Shown piece after piece: positions 58,209 through 62,891 of a stretch of DNA of 64,000 nt. Positions within the stretch are counted from its first letter, which is position 1; every line of letters begins with the position of its first letter. A model generated the notes under the pieces. That model made no database searches. It was not told where the DNA came from and saw only the letters and a list, made by a program, of their open reading frames with translations. A program made the translations under genes and the position numbers. This DNA comes from Halopiger djelfimassiliensis (GTDB lineage Archaea > Halobacteriota > Halobacteria > Halobacteriales > Natrialbaceae): assembly GCF_000455365.1 (NCBI RefSeq), contig NZ_HG315684.1, positions 643,611 through 707,610 of the forward strand, read 5' to 3'.

Positions 58209-59396
58209 TTACCGGATCACGTCGACGCCGTTCTGTCGTTCGACTTCGCTACGGCCGCCGTCGCTCTGAGCACCGAACTCCGGACCGGATGTCTCGACGT
58301 TGTTGCTGGCGTCGAAGTCGGCGTCGTTGAGTCCCTCGATGCTCGCGCGGGACTTGTCGGCCTGCTTCTGGGTGGTCGGACCGAGCACCTGCGCGCTCTG
58401 GACGCCGGTCATGATCGCCATCACGCGGACCTTGCCCTTGTAGTTCTCCTGAATGCGGGCACCCCAGATGACGTTGGCCGAGGCCTCGAGCCGCTCGGTG
58501 ATGTTGTCGGCGATGCCTTCGGCCTCCTTGAGGGTGAGGTCGGGGCCGCCGGTGATGTGGACGAGTCCGCCGGAGGCACCGCGGTAATCGACGTCCAAAA
58601 GCGGGTGGTTCATCGCGTCTTTGACGACCTCGTCGGTCTTGTTCTTGTCCTGTGTCTCCCCGACGAGCATGACGGCGACGCCACCCTGATTCATGATCGT
58701 CGACATGTCGGCGTAGTCGAGGTTGATCAACGAGGGCTGGGTGATCGTCTCCGAGATGCCCTTGACGGTTTCGGCGATGATCTGGTCCATCACCGAGAAC
58801 GCCTTGCCGATCGGGAGGTTCGGGACGTAATCGAGCAGCCGGTTGTTGTCCAGTACGATGATGGAGTCGGCCTGTTCGCGGAGTTTCTCGAGGCCCTCCT
58901 CGGCTTTCACCGTGCGGGCGCGCTCGACGTTGAACGGCGTCGAGACCATTCCGACGACGATCGCACCCTGCTCTTTGGCGATTTTGGAGACGACGGGGGC
59001 GGCACCCGTGCCGGTGCCACCGCCCATGCCGGCGGTCACGAATACGAGGTCCGCATCCCCAAGGACCTCCTTGATCGTGCTCTGGGCCATCTCGGTCGCG
59101 CGTTCGCCCATCGACGGATCGCCGCCGGCCCCGAGCCCGTTCGTGAGCGACTTGCCGACGAGGATCTTCGTATCGGCCTCGATCATCTTGAGGTGCTGTT
59201 TGTCCGTGTTGATCGCCACGGTGTCGGCACCGTCGACGCCGATGTTGTACAATCGATTGATCGTGTTGTTACCCGCACCGCCGCAACCGACGATGACGAT
59301 CCGTGGATCGCCGAACTCATCCTCGTCGAGCGAGGCGTCCATCTCACGGGCTTCCTGTTCCGCGTTCTCGAGGGCGTCTTGTACGATATCCTGCAT
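58209..59396 (-). CDS. ftsZ2: cell division protein FtsZ2
   Basis: A 395-residue tubulin-superfamily GTPase. The GTP-binding tubulin signature is [26 protein letters not shown] is near residue 34 and [38 protein letters not shown] follows. The N-terminal peptide [20 protein letters not shown] and [13 protein letters not shown] match haloarchaeal FtsZ2, needed for ring constriction. The C-terminal tail (residues about 350-395) is acidic and variable. ATG 59396, two bases after cdrS, so both are in one operon. Confidence 0.96.
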
Positions 59397-59398
59397 TG

Positions 59399-59575
59399 TT
59401 ACACCTTGGCCCAGTTCCGTTTCCCGGACTGTTCGTGTCCGTCGTACTGTTCGTTGATCATCTCACGGACGGCCGACCGGATCGCCTCGCTTCGGTTCGG
59501 GAATTCGCCCGTTTCGACCAGTTGTTCGACTTCTTCGATCTGCTGTTTCGGAATTCGCAGTGTCACACGCTCCAT
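59399..59575 (-). CDS. cdrS: ribbon-helix-helix regulator CdrS
   Basis: A 58-residue ribbon-helix-helix protein: [19 protein letters not shown] begins the beta strand, and [19 protein letters not shown] gives the two helices. CdrS is the small regulator encoded directly upstream of ftsZ2 in haloarchaea and controls ftsZ2 and cell division. The gene spans only 177 bases. It ends two bases before the ftsZ2 ATG. Its leader of about 125 bases contains inverted repeats described separately. Confidence 0.92.
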
Positions 59576-59594
59576 GGTTGTATTCCCCGTTGGG

Positions 59595-59765
59595 GTAAGA
59601 CGGTGGCGCGCCCCTGTCAGACGCGGCGTGTCTTACACCGGAACCGCCCGACATCGGGCGTTTTCGTCCTCTCTCTTCCGCTGTAAGACGACCGTCTTAC
59701 GCGAGTAAACGGAATACTGTCTTGGATAATAAAGCTTTCGTCAGACACGACGTTCCGTGTCTTAC
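59595..59765. promoter_or_regulatory. cdrS-ftsZ2 promoter with multiple inverted repeats
   Basis: The minus-strand TATA (TTTATTATCC, 59733-59724) predicts initiation near 59703. Around it lie GTAAGAC-N4-GTCTTAC (59683-59700), AGACACG-N6-CGTGTCT (59743-59762) and AGACGCGGCGTGTCT (59619-59633). Further single GTAAGAC/GTCTTAC heptamers lie at 59595-59601, 59630-59636 and 59759-59765. The symmetry and placement around the promoter indicate operators, most likely for CdrS and/or CdrL, which are RHH proteins that bind paired half-sites. Confidence 0.6.
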
Positions 59766-60376
59766 GACCGTCTCGAGTTCTGACGTTCCGACTCGAGAAC
59801 GTCGGCTGCAGGAGTCCGACGCCCGCAACTCGGACAGAACGACCAGTCCGACCGGAGTTCGTCACCACACTCGCAGAACAGTCGATGGGAGGTTTTCTCG
59901 CCGCAGTTGGGACAGTAAACGTGCTCGTCGTCGACTGACTCACCGCACTGGCCGCAAGCGGCGGCAGCTTGGGTCTCCCGATCCCGACCTCGAGCGTGGG
60001 TGCCATCGTCGCCGGCCGACTTCCCGCGCGACTGGCTCCGCATTCCTTCGTGGGTCGCCGTCCGAACCGCATCGCCCTCGAGCGAGATCGTGACGTTGAC
60101 GTCCTGCGCATCGCGGCCGCCAGTACGCGGGTGCGCGTATGACGACTCGAGTCGTTTCGCGAGGAGATCATCGACCCGCTCGCGAACGAGATCGTCGATC
60201 GACGGTTCCTCGTCCGGACCGGAGCGGTCCGATTCCCCGCTGCCCCCCTCGGCGTATGACGGCCCTTCGTCGAGATACGAGCGCAGCGCCTCCCGCATCG
60301 CTTCGCTCTTGGAACGATCGAGCGCCTCGAGTTGCTCGACGAGGTCGTCGTCCGCGCGGAACGTGATCTTACTCAT
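59762..60376 (-). CDS. cdrL: ribbon-helix-helix regulator CdrL with zinc ribbons
   Basis: A 204-residue protein. The N-terminal RHH (residues 1-40; MSKITFRADDDLVEQLEALDRSKSEAMREALRSYLDEG) is followed by an acidic linker with a second helix, then double zinc ribbon ACGQCGESVDDEHVYCPNCGEKTSHRLFCECGDELRSDWSFCPSCGRR (eight Cys). This is the CdrL architecture known next to cdrS-ftsZ2. It is transcribed in the same direction, 186 bases upstream of cdrS, and its stop overlaps one of the GTCTTAC heptamers. Confidence 0.88.
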   Translation of the reverse strand: MSKITFRADDDLVEQLEALDRSKSEAMREALRSYLDEGPSYAEGGSGESDRSGPDEEPSIDDLVRERVDDLLAKRLESSYAHPRTGGRDAQDVNVTISLEGDAVRTATHEGMRSQSRGKSAGDDGTHARGRDRETQAAAACGQCGESVDDEHVYCPNCGEKTSHRLFCECGDELRSDWSFCPSCGRRTPAADVLESERQNSRRS

Positions 60377-60505: not shown

Positions 60506-60579
60506 CCGCCCTTAGCTCAGACTGGTAGAGCAGCCGACTGTAGATCGGCTTGTCCCCCGTTCAAATCGGGGAGGGCGGA
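60506..60579 (+). tRNA. tRNA-Tyr (GTA)
   Basis: A full 74-base cloverleaf. The acceptor stem CCGCCCT (60506-60512) pairs with AGGGCGG (60572-60578), discriminator A. The anticodon stem GCCGA/TCGGC encloses CTGTAGA with anticodon GTA at 60540-60542. The T stem CCCCG/CGGGG encloses TTCAAAT. CCA is not encoded. No intron. Its 3' end serves as an integration site (repeat at 60552-60685). Confidence 0.96.
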
Positions 60580-60685
60580 TTTTCTCCGAAAATCCGACCG
60601 ACACGATTTGAACACGCCAGTCGCAGCGCGCGAACGCAGTGAGCGCGACCGTCTGGCACCTGTTCAAATCGGGGAGGGCGGACTT
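60552..60685. repeat. 134-bp direct repeat, left copy (att-like)
   Basis: Positions 60552-60685 recur as a perfect copy at 62427-62560, offset 1875. Each copy begins inside the T arm and 3' end of tRNA-Tyr and contains that 21-base tRNA end twice (60559-60579 and 60663-60683), plus an inverted copy of its core (CGATTTGAAC). This is the layout of attL/attR flanking an integrated element. Confidence 0.85.
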
Positions 60686-61472
60686 TTTCACCAAACGATT
60701 CGGAGCCGAGTGGAGCCGCGACGTCGTGCGATTCTATCTCGGCGTGTTTGGGTTGAACAGATTGCCTGACTCGGGCTACCGCTGTCGTGCGTTCGCGTAT
60801 AGTAGAACGGGTCGGGGAACCTAGAAACTTTCGCCCGAAGATACGACATGTTCTCAATCGGTGGTATAGGATTTGAGTGGCGTGATTTCTTTTTACGAAC
60901 GCGACGAACTTGCCTTACATAGGTAGGCCGCCCCGACTCCGAAAATATCCCAGATTTGCAACCAGACTTATGCAACTATGGTCGGTTTGAGTCTGAACAT
61001 CTGCGATGTAGTATATGGGAAACACCTCGTGAAGGACTGCCCAATTGTCATAATATTAAATGAAGGGTGTTGATGATTCATTCTGAAATCCAGAGTACCA
61101 CGTGTCGAATGGTAAACAGGAGAGATAACACAGGTGTGGTGTCGAGATGACCGCATCGGCTGTCGAGAAGTTCGACAGAGGCGATCGTCAGAATTCTGGT
61201 CCTACAGCTATCGGGTGCATCGTAGGAGGTGAGGGCTGGATCAAAAAGGGGCACGATCACAGCGGAAAAGCAAACAGCAACTGAGTTAAGTTCCACGCAC
61301 TCATTTGAGGATTGGAAGTTCCCTCTGAGAATCGCCCAAACGTTCTATATGGGAATCACTCGGTGAAGGCCACTCCATTGTCACGTATTATACCCATTGT
61401 CGACGTACAGGGAAGTCGCACACTGAATCAGCAACCACAGAGTACTAATGATTGGGACTGAGATGCTTTTTT
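60686..61472. other. non-coding left part of the integrated element
   Basis: 787 bases with low GC and no convincing gene. It includes an imperfect direct repeat: TATATGGGAA at 61012 and at 61346 begin two 46-base stretches about 75% alike by eye, both ending with an AT-rich TTGTCA-type segment. They may be remains of a mobile element or control region for the methyltransferase. Confidence 0.45.
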
Positions 61473-62123
61473 ATGAATCTTAACCTAGGATGCGGTGCAG
61501 ATGGGATTGATGGTTGGATTAATATCGATAAATCTTGGGACGCTCGTCTCTCGAAATATCCCTTTATCCATCGATTCTTTCAAAATATTGGAATAGGATT
61601 CACAGATGAAATGAGGGACGTTCCGAATTTGATGACACACGATCTTTCAGAAGATCTGCCATTTGATGACGAATCAGTAGAATACATATACACATCCCAC
61701 GCAATTGAACATCTTGGTCGTGATGATGCTGAAGATCTTATTGCGGAATCATACAGAGTGTTGGAACAAGGTGGTCGAATACGAATAGTAACACCAGATT
61801 TAGAAAAGTATATTTCTGAATATTTAGGCGATATTGAGCTTGATGGGAGTGAAAAATACACATCTTCCGCAGACATATTTGTGAATCGTACAATGATGGG
61901 AAAAGAGAATATTGATATGGTTGCCCAAAGAGTAAGAAAATCTATATTTCAACCAGAGAATAATCATTACTGGCTATATGATTTCAAATCTATAGAAAAT
62001 ATGCTGGAAAAAGAAGGGTTTGAAGAAATCGAACGTTGCAAGTATCAGGAGGGAAATGTACCTGATATAGAAAAACTTGATAATAGACCTCAAACTTCAA
62101 TACACGTTGAAGCAAGGAAATGA
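61473..62123 (+). CDS. class I SAM methyltransferase, horizontally acquired
   Basis: A 216-residue methyltransferase beginning MNLNLGCGADGIDGWINIDKS (motif I), then the EDLPFDDESVEYIYTSHAIEHLGRDDAEDLIAESYRVLEQGGRIRIVTPDLEKYI segment typical of polysaccharide-linked methyltransferases. GC content is about 35-40% by eye against over 60% around it, with A/T-ending codons throughout. That marks recent transfer. It lies inside the tRNA-Tyr element. ATG 61473 directly precedes motif I; an upstream ATG adds only seven residues. Substrate unknown. Confidence 0.85.
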   Translation: MNLNLGCGADGIDGWINIDKSWDARLSKYPFIHRFFQNIGIGFTDEMRDVPNLMTHDLSEDLPFDDESVEYIYTSHAIEHLGRDDAEDLIAESYRVLEQGGRIRIVTPDLEKYISEYLGDIELDGSEKYTSSADIFVNRTMMGKENIDMVAQRVRKSIFQPENNHYWLYDFKSIENMLEKEGFEEIERCKYQEGNVPDIEKLDNRPQTSIHVEARK

Positions 62124-62127
62124 TATT

Positions 62128-62345
62128 CAATCTGTTCAACATCTTTCCGCCAGAGCCGATACTCGTACAGCCTGCGGCCAGTGAGGTCGTTGTGGTTGGT
62201 GAGGTTTTCCTTCGCACCATCGGACGAAGTGCTTGAGACGGTATCTGTGGGCCTGTACGGTTCTCTCAGAAGCGTCGTCCTCCCGTTGTGCGAGGTAGAG
62301 GTCGACTGCCTTCTGTGGTGCGATGGGTTTGAGGTCTTGGGTCAT
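62128..62345 (-). pseudogene. tyrosine recombinase (integrase) N-terminal fragment, frameshifted
   Basis: The frame starts MTQDLKPIAPQKAVDLYL and continues QREDDASERTVQAHRYRLKHFVRWCEG, the SAM-like DNA-binding domain of haloarchaeal integrases. After about position 62210 the family sequence ENLTNHNDLTGRRLYEYRLW continues in another frame, so a frameshift is present. It then ends at the 3' end of the methyltransferase gene. The catalytic domain is missing, so it is inactive. Confidence 0.8.
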
Positions 62346-62426
62346 CGGTTGTCATCTCCGCGAACCCACGATGTCGGTCGGGGAAGCCGAGCAGATGGCC
62401 CGATGCAGCCCTGTTATCCCGCCGCA

Positions 62427-62560
62427 GTCCCCCGTTCAAATCGGGGAGGGCGGATTTTCTCCGAAAATCCGACCGACACGATTTGAACACGCCAGTCGCA
62501 GCGCGCGAACGCAGTGAGCGCGACCGTCTGGCACCTGTTCAAATCGGGGAGGGCGGACTT
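62427..62560. repeat. 134-bp direct repeat, right copy (att-like)
   Basis: Perfect copy of 60552-60685. It includes two copies of the tRNA-Tyr 3' end (62434-62454 and 62538-62558) but not the rest of the tRNA. It marks the distal junction of the element. Confidence 0.85.
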
Positions 62561-62891
62561 CGTTTTCAGTCGAAGCGTAATATTCCCGTGAAGACGTGTT
62601 TACATCCGTTCTAGAGTCGCCCCATTCCAGTCTCTAGGACGTGCGTTCATCCGAAAGCCGTGCGTTTACCGGATCGATGCCATCGCCTGTATTTCATAGC
62701 AAGCGAAAACCGGTGAGACAGCGCTGGTTCCACTCGAGAACCAACGTTGTATGGGCCGTTGTCCAAGGGTCAGCGACGATTAAACCGACCAAGAGCTCGC
62801 CTCAGACGTCCAATATTGCGAAGAGCCACAGCAGCTATCGACCGGCGAATCAATCCCACGTATCCCGTGTTTCCTGCAGCCAAGGCGCTGG
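62561..62891. other. intergenic region downstream of the element
   Basis: 331 bases between the right repeat and the next gene. No recognisable gene or RNA. On the minus strand a short reading frame (GNTGYVGLIRRSIAAVALRN...) lies beyond the stop of the membrane protein gene, possibly a relic. Confidence 0.4.

Follow-up and report, generated by a model that had tools for sequence, protein, structure and literature searches.

An apparent remnant of an integrative element at a haloarchaeal tRNA-Tyr gene, and a folded unit that recurs behind haloarchaeal tRNA genes

The tRNA-Tyr gene in the window (the whole stretch of 64,000 nucleotides analysed here) is followed by an arrangement that we read, with moderate confidence, as consisting of two layers: a dead integrative element at tRNA-Tyr, and older, exchangeable hairpin units at the border of the tRNA T-loop. 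Taken by itself, the 1.9-kb insert is ordinary, most readily understood as what remains of an integrative element at tRNA-Tyr, and the two tRNA ends found within each copy of the 134-bp repeat around it are not part of that element. The novelty lies in the unit family and not in the insert. For these tRNA-tail units, the anatomy, the fold, the distribution, the local matching to the host tRNA, the turnover and the sharing of modules are demonstrated below. An order-wide family of such units behind haloarchaeal tRNA genes appears to be undescribed so far; no account of the unit was found in the open-access literature, and an earlier description elsewhere is possible. The features of the locus (window 60506-62560) and of its immediate flank are as follows.

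60506 to 60579, plus strand: tRNA-Tyr gene (GTA), the target gene (ARAGORN; Rfam RF00005)
60552 to 60685, plus strand: left copy of the 134-bp perfect direct repeat
60559 to 60579, plus strand: core 1, corresponding to tRNA-Tyr positions 53-73
60580 to 60682, plus strand: tRNA-tail unit, copy 1, comprising hp1, the inverted T-arm, hp2 and a second tRNA end
60605 to 60613, plus strand: inverted T-arm (anti-T, GATTTGAAC), from inverted repeat I2 and model R1
60619 to 60654, plus strand: hp2 module, AGTCGCAG-hairpin-GACCGTCT, from the sequence and alignments
60662 to 60682, plus strand: core 2, the second copy of tRNA-Tyr positions 53-73
60686 to 62426, no strand assigned: apparent remnant of an integrative element, AT-rich (GC 0.458), 1741 bp
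61473 to 62123, plus strand: class I SAM-dependent methyltransferase gene (Methyltransf_11)
62140 to 62345, minus strand: integrase remnant, N-terminal domain only, with one frameshift and without the catalytic domain
62427 to 62560, plus strand: right copy of the 134-bp repeat
62434 to 62454, plus strand: core 3, whose 5' side continues the T-stem (CCCCC) as in an element's attP core
62455 to 62557, plus strand: tRNA-tail unit, copy 2, ending in core 4 (R1 match 62480-62545)
62537 to 62557, plus strand: core 4
62558 to 62580, plus strand: presumed ancestral tRNA-Tyr trailer (CTTCGTTTTCAGTCGAAGCG...), which directly follows the single tRNA end in the related genome G001

Directly upstream of the tRNA gene, at window 58209-60376 on the minus strand, FtsZ, a small CopG-like protein and a CdrL-like zinc-ribbon protein are encoded in a row, as in a cell-division cluster of the cdrS-cdrL-ftsZ type.

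The initial annotation had described a 134-bp perfect direct repeat bounding an AT-rich insert, each repeat holding two copies of the 21-base tRNA end and the locus four in total, and the coordinates bear this out. The two repeat copies are 100% identical and are found nowhere else in the genome, the 21-nt end (positions 53-73) reads GTTCAAATCGGGGAGGGCGGA, and the GC content of the insert is 0.458 against 0.647 for the window, with 0.366 in the methyltransferase gene. Two features had been overlooked: an inverted T-arm lies between the two tRNA ends of each repeat, and double-core units are found at other loci as well. The methyltransferase gene, correctly named as cargo, has no homolog at E<=1e-10 among 60 related genomes, and its relatives elsewhere are distant, coming from bacterial plasmids and one phage record. 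Upstream of this gene, still within the insert, a 24-nt imperfect direct repeat (83%), TATATGGGAAACACCTCGTGAAGG, lies at window 61012-61035 and 61346-61369. The recombinase had been called a frameshifted fragment, and such it is: the reading frame begins with an ATG at 62345 on the minus strand and ends near 62140. The fragment corresponds to residues 1 to about 70 of integrases that in haloarchaea measure about 340 aa; a single frameshift falls after about residue 47, where KENLTNHNDLTGRRLYEYRLWRKD continues in another frame, and the catalytic domain is missing.

Direct repeats of the tRNA 3' end lie at both borders of the insert, as in elements that target tRNA genes, and relatives hold the empty site (G001 L022 and other single-core tRNA-Tyr loci); a working integrase is not present, and the insert is therefore named a remnant. 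A comparable element, intact-looking and 20 kb long, occupies the tRNA-Arg gene of G021 (L343). Its integrase gene starts within the element, close to the tRNA end on the right, and is read towards the left. The same right-end layout, an integrase gene on the minus strand and then a tRNA end, is seen here (62345, with core 3 at 62434). Because of this shared layout and of a methyltransferase without close homologs, the insert is best read as what is left of an integrative element with AT-rich cargo. It had been proposed instead that it is a very small satellite borrowing the integrase of a helper. Four possible cores, the small size and the lack of a working integrase would suit a minimal satellite; however, the integrase is decayed, as the insert as a whole appears to be, the methyltransferase has no relative at the above threshold and double cores are widespread where no such element exists, so that the proposal finds no support and is held to be highly improbable.

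The empty site with a single tRNA end, which the initial annotation had suggested looking for in relatives, was found in G001 (L022), where one tRNA-Tyr end is directly followed by CTTGGTTTTCAGCCGAAGCG, with 18 of 20 bases equal to CTTCGTTTTCAGTCGAAGCG, the sequence after the last core here. This correspondence between the two trailers suggests that the unit entered first and the integrative element afterwards. The earlier idea of two nested events thus stands in outline, but the events would be the arrival of a tRNA-tail unit and then that of an integrative element. The unit would have inserted first at tRNA-Tyr, yielding a core-unit-core arrangement, and the element would later have entered the gene. 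It may then have left by recombination of core 1 with core 4 rather than with core 3, carrying the unit on the circle, and have re-entered a tRNA-Tyr gene still provided with its own unit, which would leave the order unit-element-unit and the perfect 134-bp repeat. Excision and re-entry is plausible as the simplest route to units on both sides, and gene conversion between both ends would produce an indistinguishable arrangement.

Read on the tRNA strand, the unit has the order [tRNA end]-hairpin-[inverted T-arm]-AGTCGCAG-hairpin-GACCGTCT-[tRNA end] and a length of about 100-140 bp. The first hairpin after the tRNA (hp1) takes up about 35-50 nt, the anti-T is an inverted copy of tRNA positions 65 to 53, hp2 is a variable hairpin with a tip of the C-GNA-G type, enclosed by AGTCGCAG and GACCGTCT, and the last part (T2) corresponds to positions 53-73 of the same tRNA. 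Since the anti-T can pair with T1 or with T2, there are two palindromes with one common arm. In the window this arm, at 60605-60613, belongs both to a palindrome with core 1 (60559-60584/60588-60613) and to another with core 2. The covariance model R1 matches copy 1 at 60605-60670 with 81.6 bits (E 1.3e-17). When the segment 60506-60690 was folded as RNA, the minimum was an extended tRNA carrying the unit as an insert, in which the 5' acceptor strand pairs with the acceptor end of the second copy and not with that of the first.

Judged from aligned sequences, the covariation support for the predicted fold is strong. Among 113 distinct units, 95.9% of the cells are paired and 20 of the 24 pairs have two-sided changes, counts that lean towards the model because the alignment was fitted to it; sliding the partner by 1-3 columns brought pairing down to 29-48%, and a sequence-aligned set of 16 units agrees with the fold. 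The excess of G.T over A.C pairs (83 vs 25) indicates that the tRNA-sense strand is the one that folds, be it as RNA or as single-stranded DNA, and a strand-biased mutation process could contribute to this excess. No Rfam family matches the unit, the noteworthy matches being to tRNA only, and the internal loop, compared by eye, fitted neither a kink-turn nor box H/ACA nor a bulge-helix-bulge.

Several related arrangements were also seen. In one genome, tRNA-Ser, -Arg and -Lys carry a second unit type, with the internal motif GACCGAGGTTCTGCG...GCAGGTTCTCGG set in the same anti-T/T frame (L353:590-636, L343 near 5300 and L354:635-680). The AGTCGCAG-hairpin-GACCGTCT core stands without tRNA arms in a dispersed intergenic repeat of G060, a second context of the hairpin (L349, L350 and L351, on G060:C1 near 1803605, 1722879 and 1735431, with similar partial model matches in G060 near 1757626, 863562 and 1604520); L350 and L351 have about 390 bp in common at 85% identity. 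Lastly, pseudo-copies of the tRNA 3' half, from the anticodon arm onward, carry hairpins at the T-stem/T-loop border (L066:716-855, L347:9005-9100, L008 and L028), as if a cassette without a tRNA end had been inserted there.

The covariance model search recovered units in 55 of the 61 related haloarchaeal genomes, with up to 40 copies in each, and at 19 tRNA families. In a phylum-wide sample of 197 genomes searched with the model, units were present in 31, all of them in the window's own order, and among the matches listed no unit fell outside that order. In the three genomes for which distances were taken, 62 of 85 units lie 0-350 nt downstream of a same-strand tRNA, most of them at 40-80 nt, figures to be read knowing that Infernal misses some tRNAs, and the tRNA genes with a unit number 25/46, 20/42 and 8/44, the last being the genome studied here. 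Several of the other model matches are found further off, 1.9-20 kb downstream of a tRNA, and the clearest of these displaced units were pushed off by integrated elements, by 1.9 kb in the window and, in G021, where the units pre-existed, by 20.5 kb at tRNA-Arg (L343) and 18.8 kb at L345.

A search of 61 genomes with the DNA of the tRNA-Tyr region gave a similar picture, at least two cores being present in more than half of the tRNA-Tyr loci that were retrieved from the other genomes. A second tRNA-Tyr end at about 100 bp is common and the linker is similar in most loci; a linker of the same kind follows tRNA-Pro, Arg, Ser, Glu, Gly, Ile, Leu, Phe and His, mostly succeeded by a copy of the end of that very tRNA. 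Double cores also occur at loci without any integrase or element. A pattern scan of genome contigs returned mostly chance bacterial matches and was useful only for named haloarchaea. Units stand beside tRNA genes in Haloferax gibbonsii ATCC 33959, Halovivax asiaticus, Natronorubrum sulfidifaciens, Natronosalvus hydrolyticus and Halorientalis pallida, and on a plasmid of Natronorubrum bangense. The possibility that units are the attP of viruses or plasmids was considered and rejected: a scan of IMG/VR with a 16-base pattern gave at least 120 stretches, and the 80 of them tested with the model held no unit, while a plasmid search yielded two weak leads, one being a tRNA-Gly with a unit on the large N. 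bangense plasmid and the other a sequence resembling tRNA-Tyr on a Salinibaculum plasmid, in the inspected flank of which no unit was visible by eye. Nor do the units behave as ends of integrase-bearing elements, for the G021 elements sit between tRNA and unit (L343, L345) and the attP core of L343 is without a type A hairpin.

The units are matched to the tRNA behind which they lie. The second end fits its own tRNA at positions 62-73, with no more than 3 mismatches, at 115 of 152 loci, compared to 82 of 3040 trials with foreign tRNA ends; this set of loci, used also for the T1/T2 mismatch and the sharing of hp2, is biased because most of its members were fetched by model matches. The copied end begins at the G53/T54 border. 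Mismatch of T2 to T1 is 0-4% at positions 53-65 and rises up to 18% at position 73, the search rule influencing positions 53-61, and 62-73 weakly. As for the anti-T, it fits its own tRNA at 62-65 (2.31 of 4 vs 1.39), and at 66-73 no such fit is seen (2.50 vs 2.30 of 8). The low T2 mismatch at 53-65, together with an anti-T fit that ends at 65, indicates that T-arm identity is the part that is kept. Snap-back synthesis was discarded as the source of the copied end, given that the anti-T fits the own tRNA only at 53-65 while T2 spans 53-73; T2 was thus probably not copied from the anti-T. A polarity placing older copies further from the tRNA was also set aside, its signal being weak (11 vs 7).

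Comparison of close relatives shows that units come and go. Within a genus of ten species, the tRNA-Tyr gene has behind it, depending on the species, different units, two units or no unit: G066 has none and the same downstream gene as G062 and G067, and G004 and G068 stand one whole T-unit-T step apart and continue into one common flank, GAGAAACAGCGTTCGA. In a genus of 29 species, the tRNA-Leu genes of sister species are followed by several hp1 and hp2 types in new combinations, and some species have truncated unit remnants. Modules are also shared across tRNAs. The hp2 at tRNA-Leu in G234 is 94% identical to that at tRNA-Val in G267, and at tRNA-Phe and tRNA-Ile of G031 the two hp2 are 98% identical, rare variants included, and the two hp1 only 52% alike; the arms of these units fit the local tRNA. 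The nearest hp2 lies at another isoacceptor in 81 of 137 cases and at the same one in 56, a count that leaves out the pairs of L510, labelled tRNA-Glu by a doubtful ARAGORN call with a long intron. Tandem arrays reach up to four units (L015).

How, then, could such units arise and spread? In the reading that we put forward, they would be exchangeable hairpin modules inserting at the G53/T54 border of the tRNA T-loop. The tRNA-sense strand would fold and the inverted T-arm would pair with the second T-arm, so that a single strand would form a double-stranded copy of the T-arm at the point where the module joins. In integron attC sites the site of the recombinase is presented from one folded strand, and by analogy a putative tyrosine recombinase may act here on folded, attC-like sites, which would explain the exact T-to-T gain and loss, the tandem arrays and the presence of the same hp2 at different tRNAs. 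Nearly all Halobacteriales would then possess a new recombination system, an idea offered tentatively: hairpin modules in single-stranded form would be inserted at the T-loop border, exchanged for one another and stacked. Under such a system, and with the same reserve, tRNA genes might be seen as landing platforms for folded cassettes, in an integron-like process without an integron. Against it, no recombinase is tied to the units, neither a circular nor a free form of them was observed, the viral stretches tested held no unit, an ordinary tyrosine recombinase needs a matching attP and by that alone leaves the fit of the copied end to the local tRNA unexplained, double-stranded circles of about 100 bp would be strained, and the type A hairpin lies outside the attP of the integrase-bearing L343.

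The main rival of this hairpin-module reading is a role as RNA, which we regard as rather unlikely: the units would be elements of the pre-tRNA 3' trailer whose anti-T can pair with either T-arm, that of the tRNA itself or that of the second copy, and would serve as a switch or chaperone in maturation or 3' processing, gene conversion having spread them between loci. The shared strand and the short, constant distance, the compensatory changes, the bias towards G.U pairs in the transcribed strand, the maintained identity of the T1 and T2 arms and the fold of tRNA plus unit (z = -5.8, its minimum pairing the 5' acceptor strand with the 3' end of the second copy) all speak for it. However, the unit is missing from about half of the tRNA genes in unit-rich genomes and from 36 of 44 here, one and the same tRNA is followed in sister species by unrelated hairpins or by remnants, arrays extend to four units (L015), and the second acceptor end, dispensable for the hairpin, is still an exact copy in most. 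The units might also be scars, extra tRNA ends left by repeated integration and loss, with generic palindromes grown by slippage or template switching. Archaeal attachment sites are usually tRNA ends (PMC8371274), copies of tRNA fragments with hairpins in the T-stem exist (L066, L347) and T2 decays towards its 3' end; but a near-invariant internal motif (AGTCGCAG / CCGTCT) with covarying stems in many genera and 19 tRNA families, tight distances and similar unit sizes make this improbable. An insertion of Cas1/casposase type, in which a short DNA joins the tRNA 3' end and 21 bp of target site are duplicated, would account for the local templating, and casposases do insert at tRNA 3' ends with duplications of 14-15 bp (PMC6977970). 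Yet the length of the duplication differs, the inverted T-arm within the unit is left unexplained, and Cas1 is found in only 17 of the 61 genomes, being absent from this one and from the unit-rich G004, G025, G039, G043 and G060, so that we give this option hardly any credence.

The tRNA 3' ends are preferred targets of integration in archaea, and here a structured unit stands behind up to half of the tRNA genes. If mobile, the units would make up a family of very small site-specific elements with a new recombination reaction; if functional as RNA, they would be an order-wide tRNA-trailer element. In either case, because second tRNA ends arise without any element, the units confuse the annotation of att sites and provirus borders in haloarchaea.

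As regards known systems, attC boxes have the consensus RYYYAAC / GTTRRRY, and the unit arms (...TTTGAAC / GTTCAAA...), compared by eye, agree with it only in the AAC and GTT ends. The units, at about 100-140 bp, are too short for gene cassettes, and on these two counts the unit is not classed as an integron. With the attC sites and CALINs of archaeal integrons (PMC9668308) the units share an imperfect palindrome on one strand with a conserved stem, a variable tip and conserved unpaired bases, a junction at a G/TT step, tandem arrays and an exchange of units, whereas the units carry no genes and their arms are copies of the tRNA T-arm, changing with each tRNA; the main text of the archaeal integron paper makes no mention of Halobacteria or tRNA (PMC9668308). 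With the att sites of archaeal tyrosine integrases (PMC8371274), the units share direct repeats of the tRNA 3' end, and some of these integrases have been suggested to cut at the border of a tRNA loop (PMC8371274); unlike them, the units are about 100 bp long, without an integrase but with an inverted T-arm and a conserved hairpin inside, and lie at many tRNAs of one genome. REP/MITE-like sequences and the SMRs and PATEs of Haloquadratum (PMC3119063) are likewise short, non-coding and palindromic, but they were described without target duplications (PMC3119063), while the units are tied to tRNA 3' ends, on one strand, with copies of the local tRNA end. Casposons differ by their 14-15 bp duplication, their terminal inverted repeats and their requirement for Cas1 (PMC6977970), which many unit-bearing genomes lack (it is absent, for instance, from G000, G004 and G060). 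In sum, the unit is neither a casposon nor an ordinary attachment scar, and it belongs to no known Rfam family.
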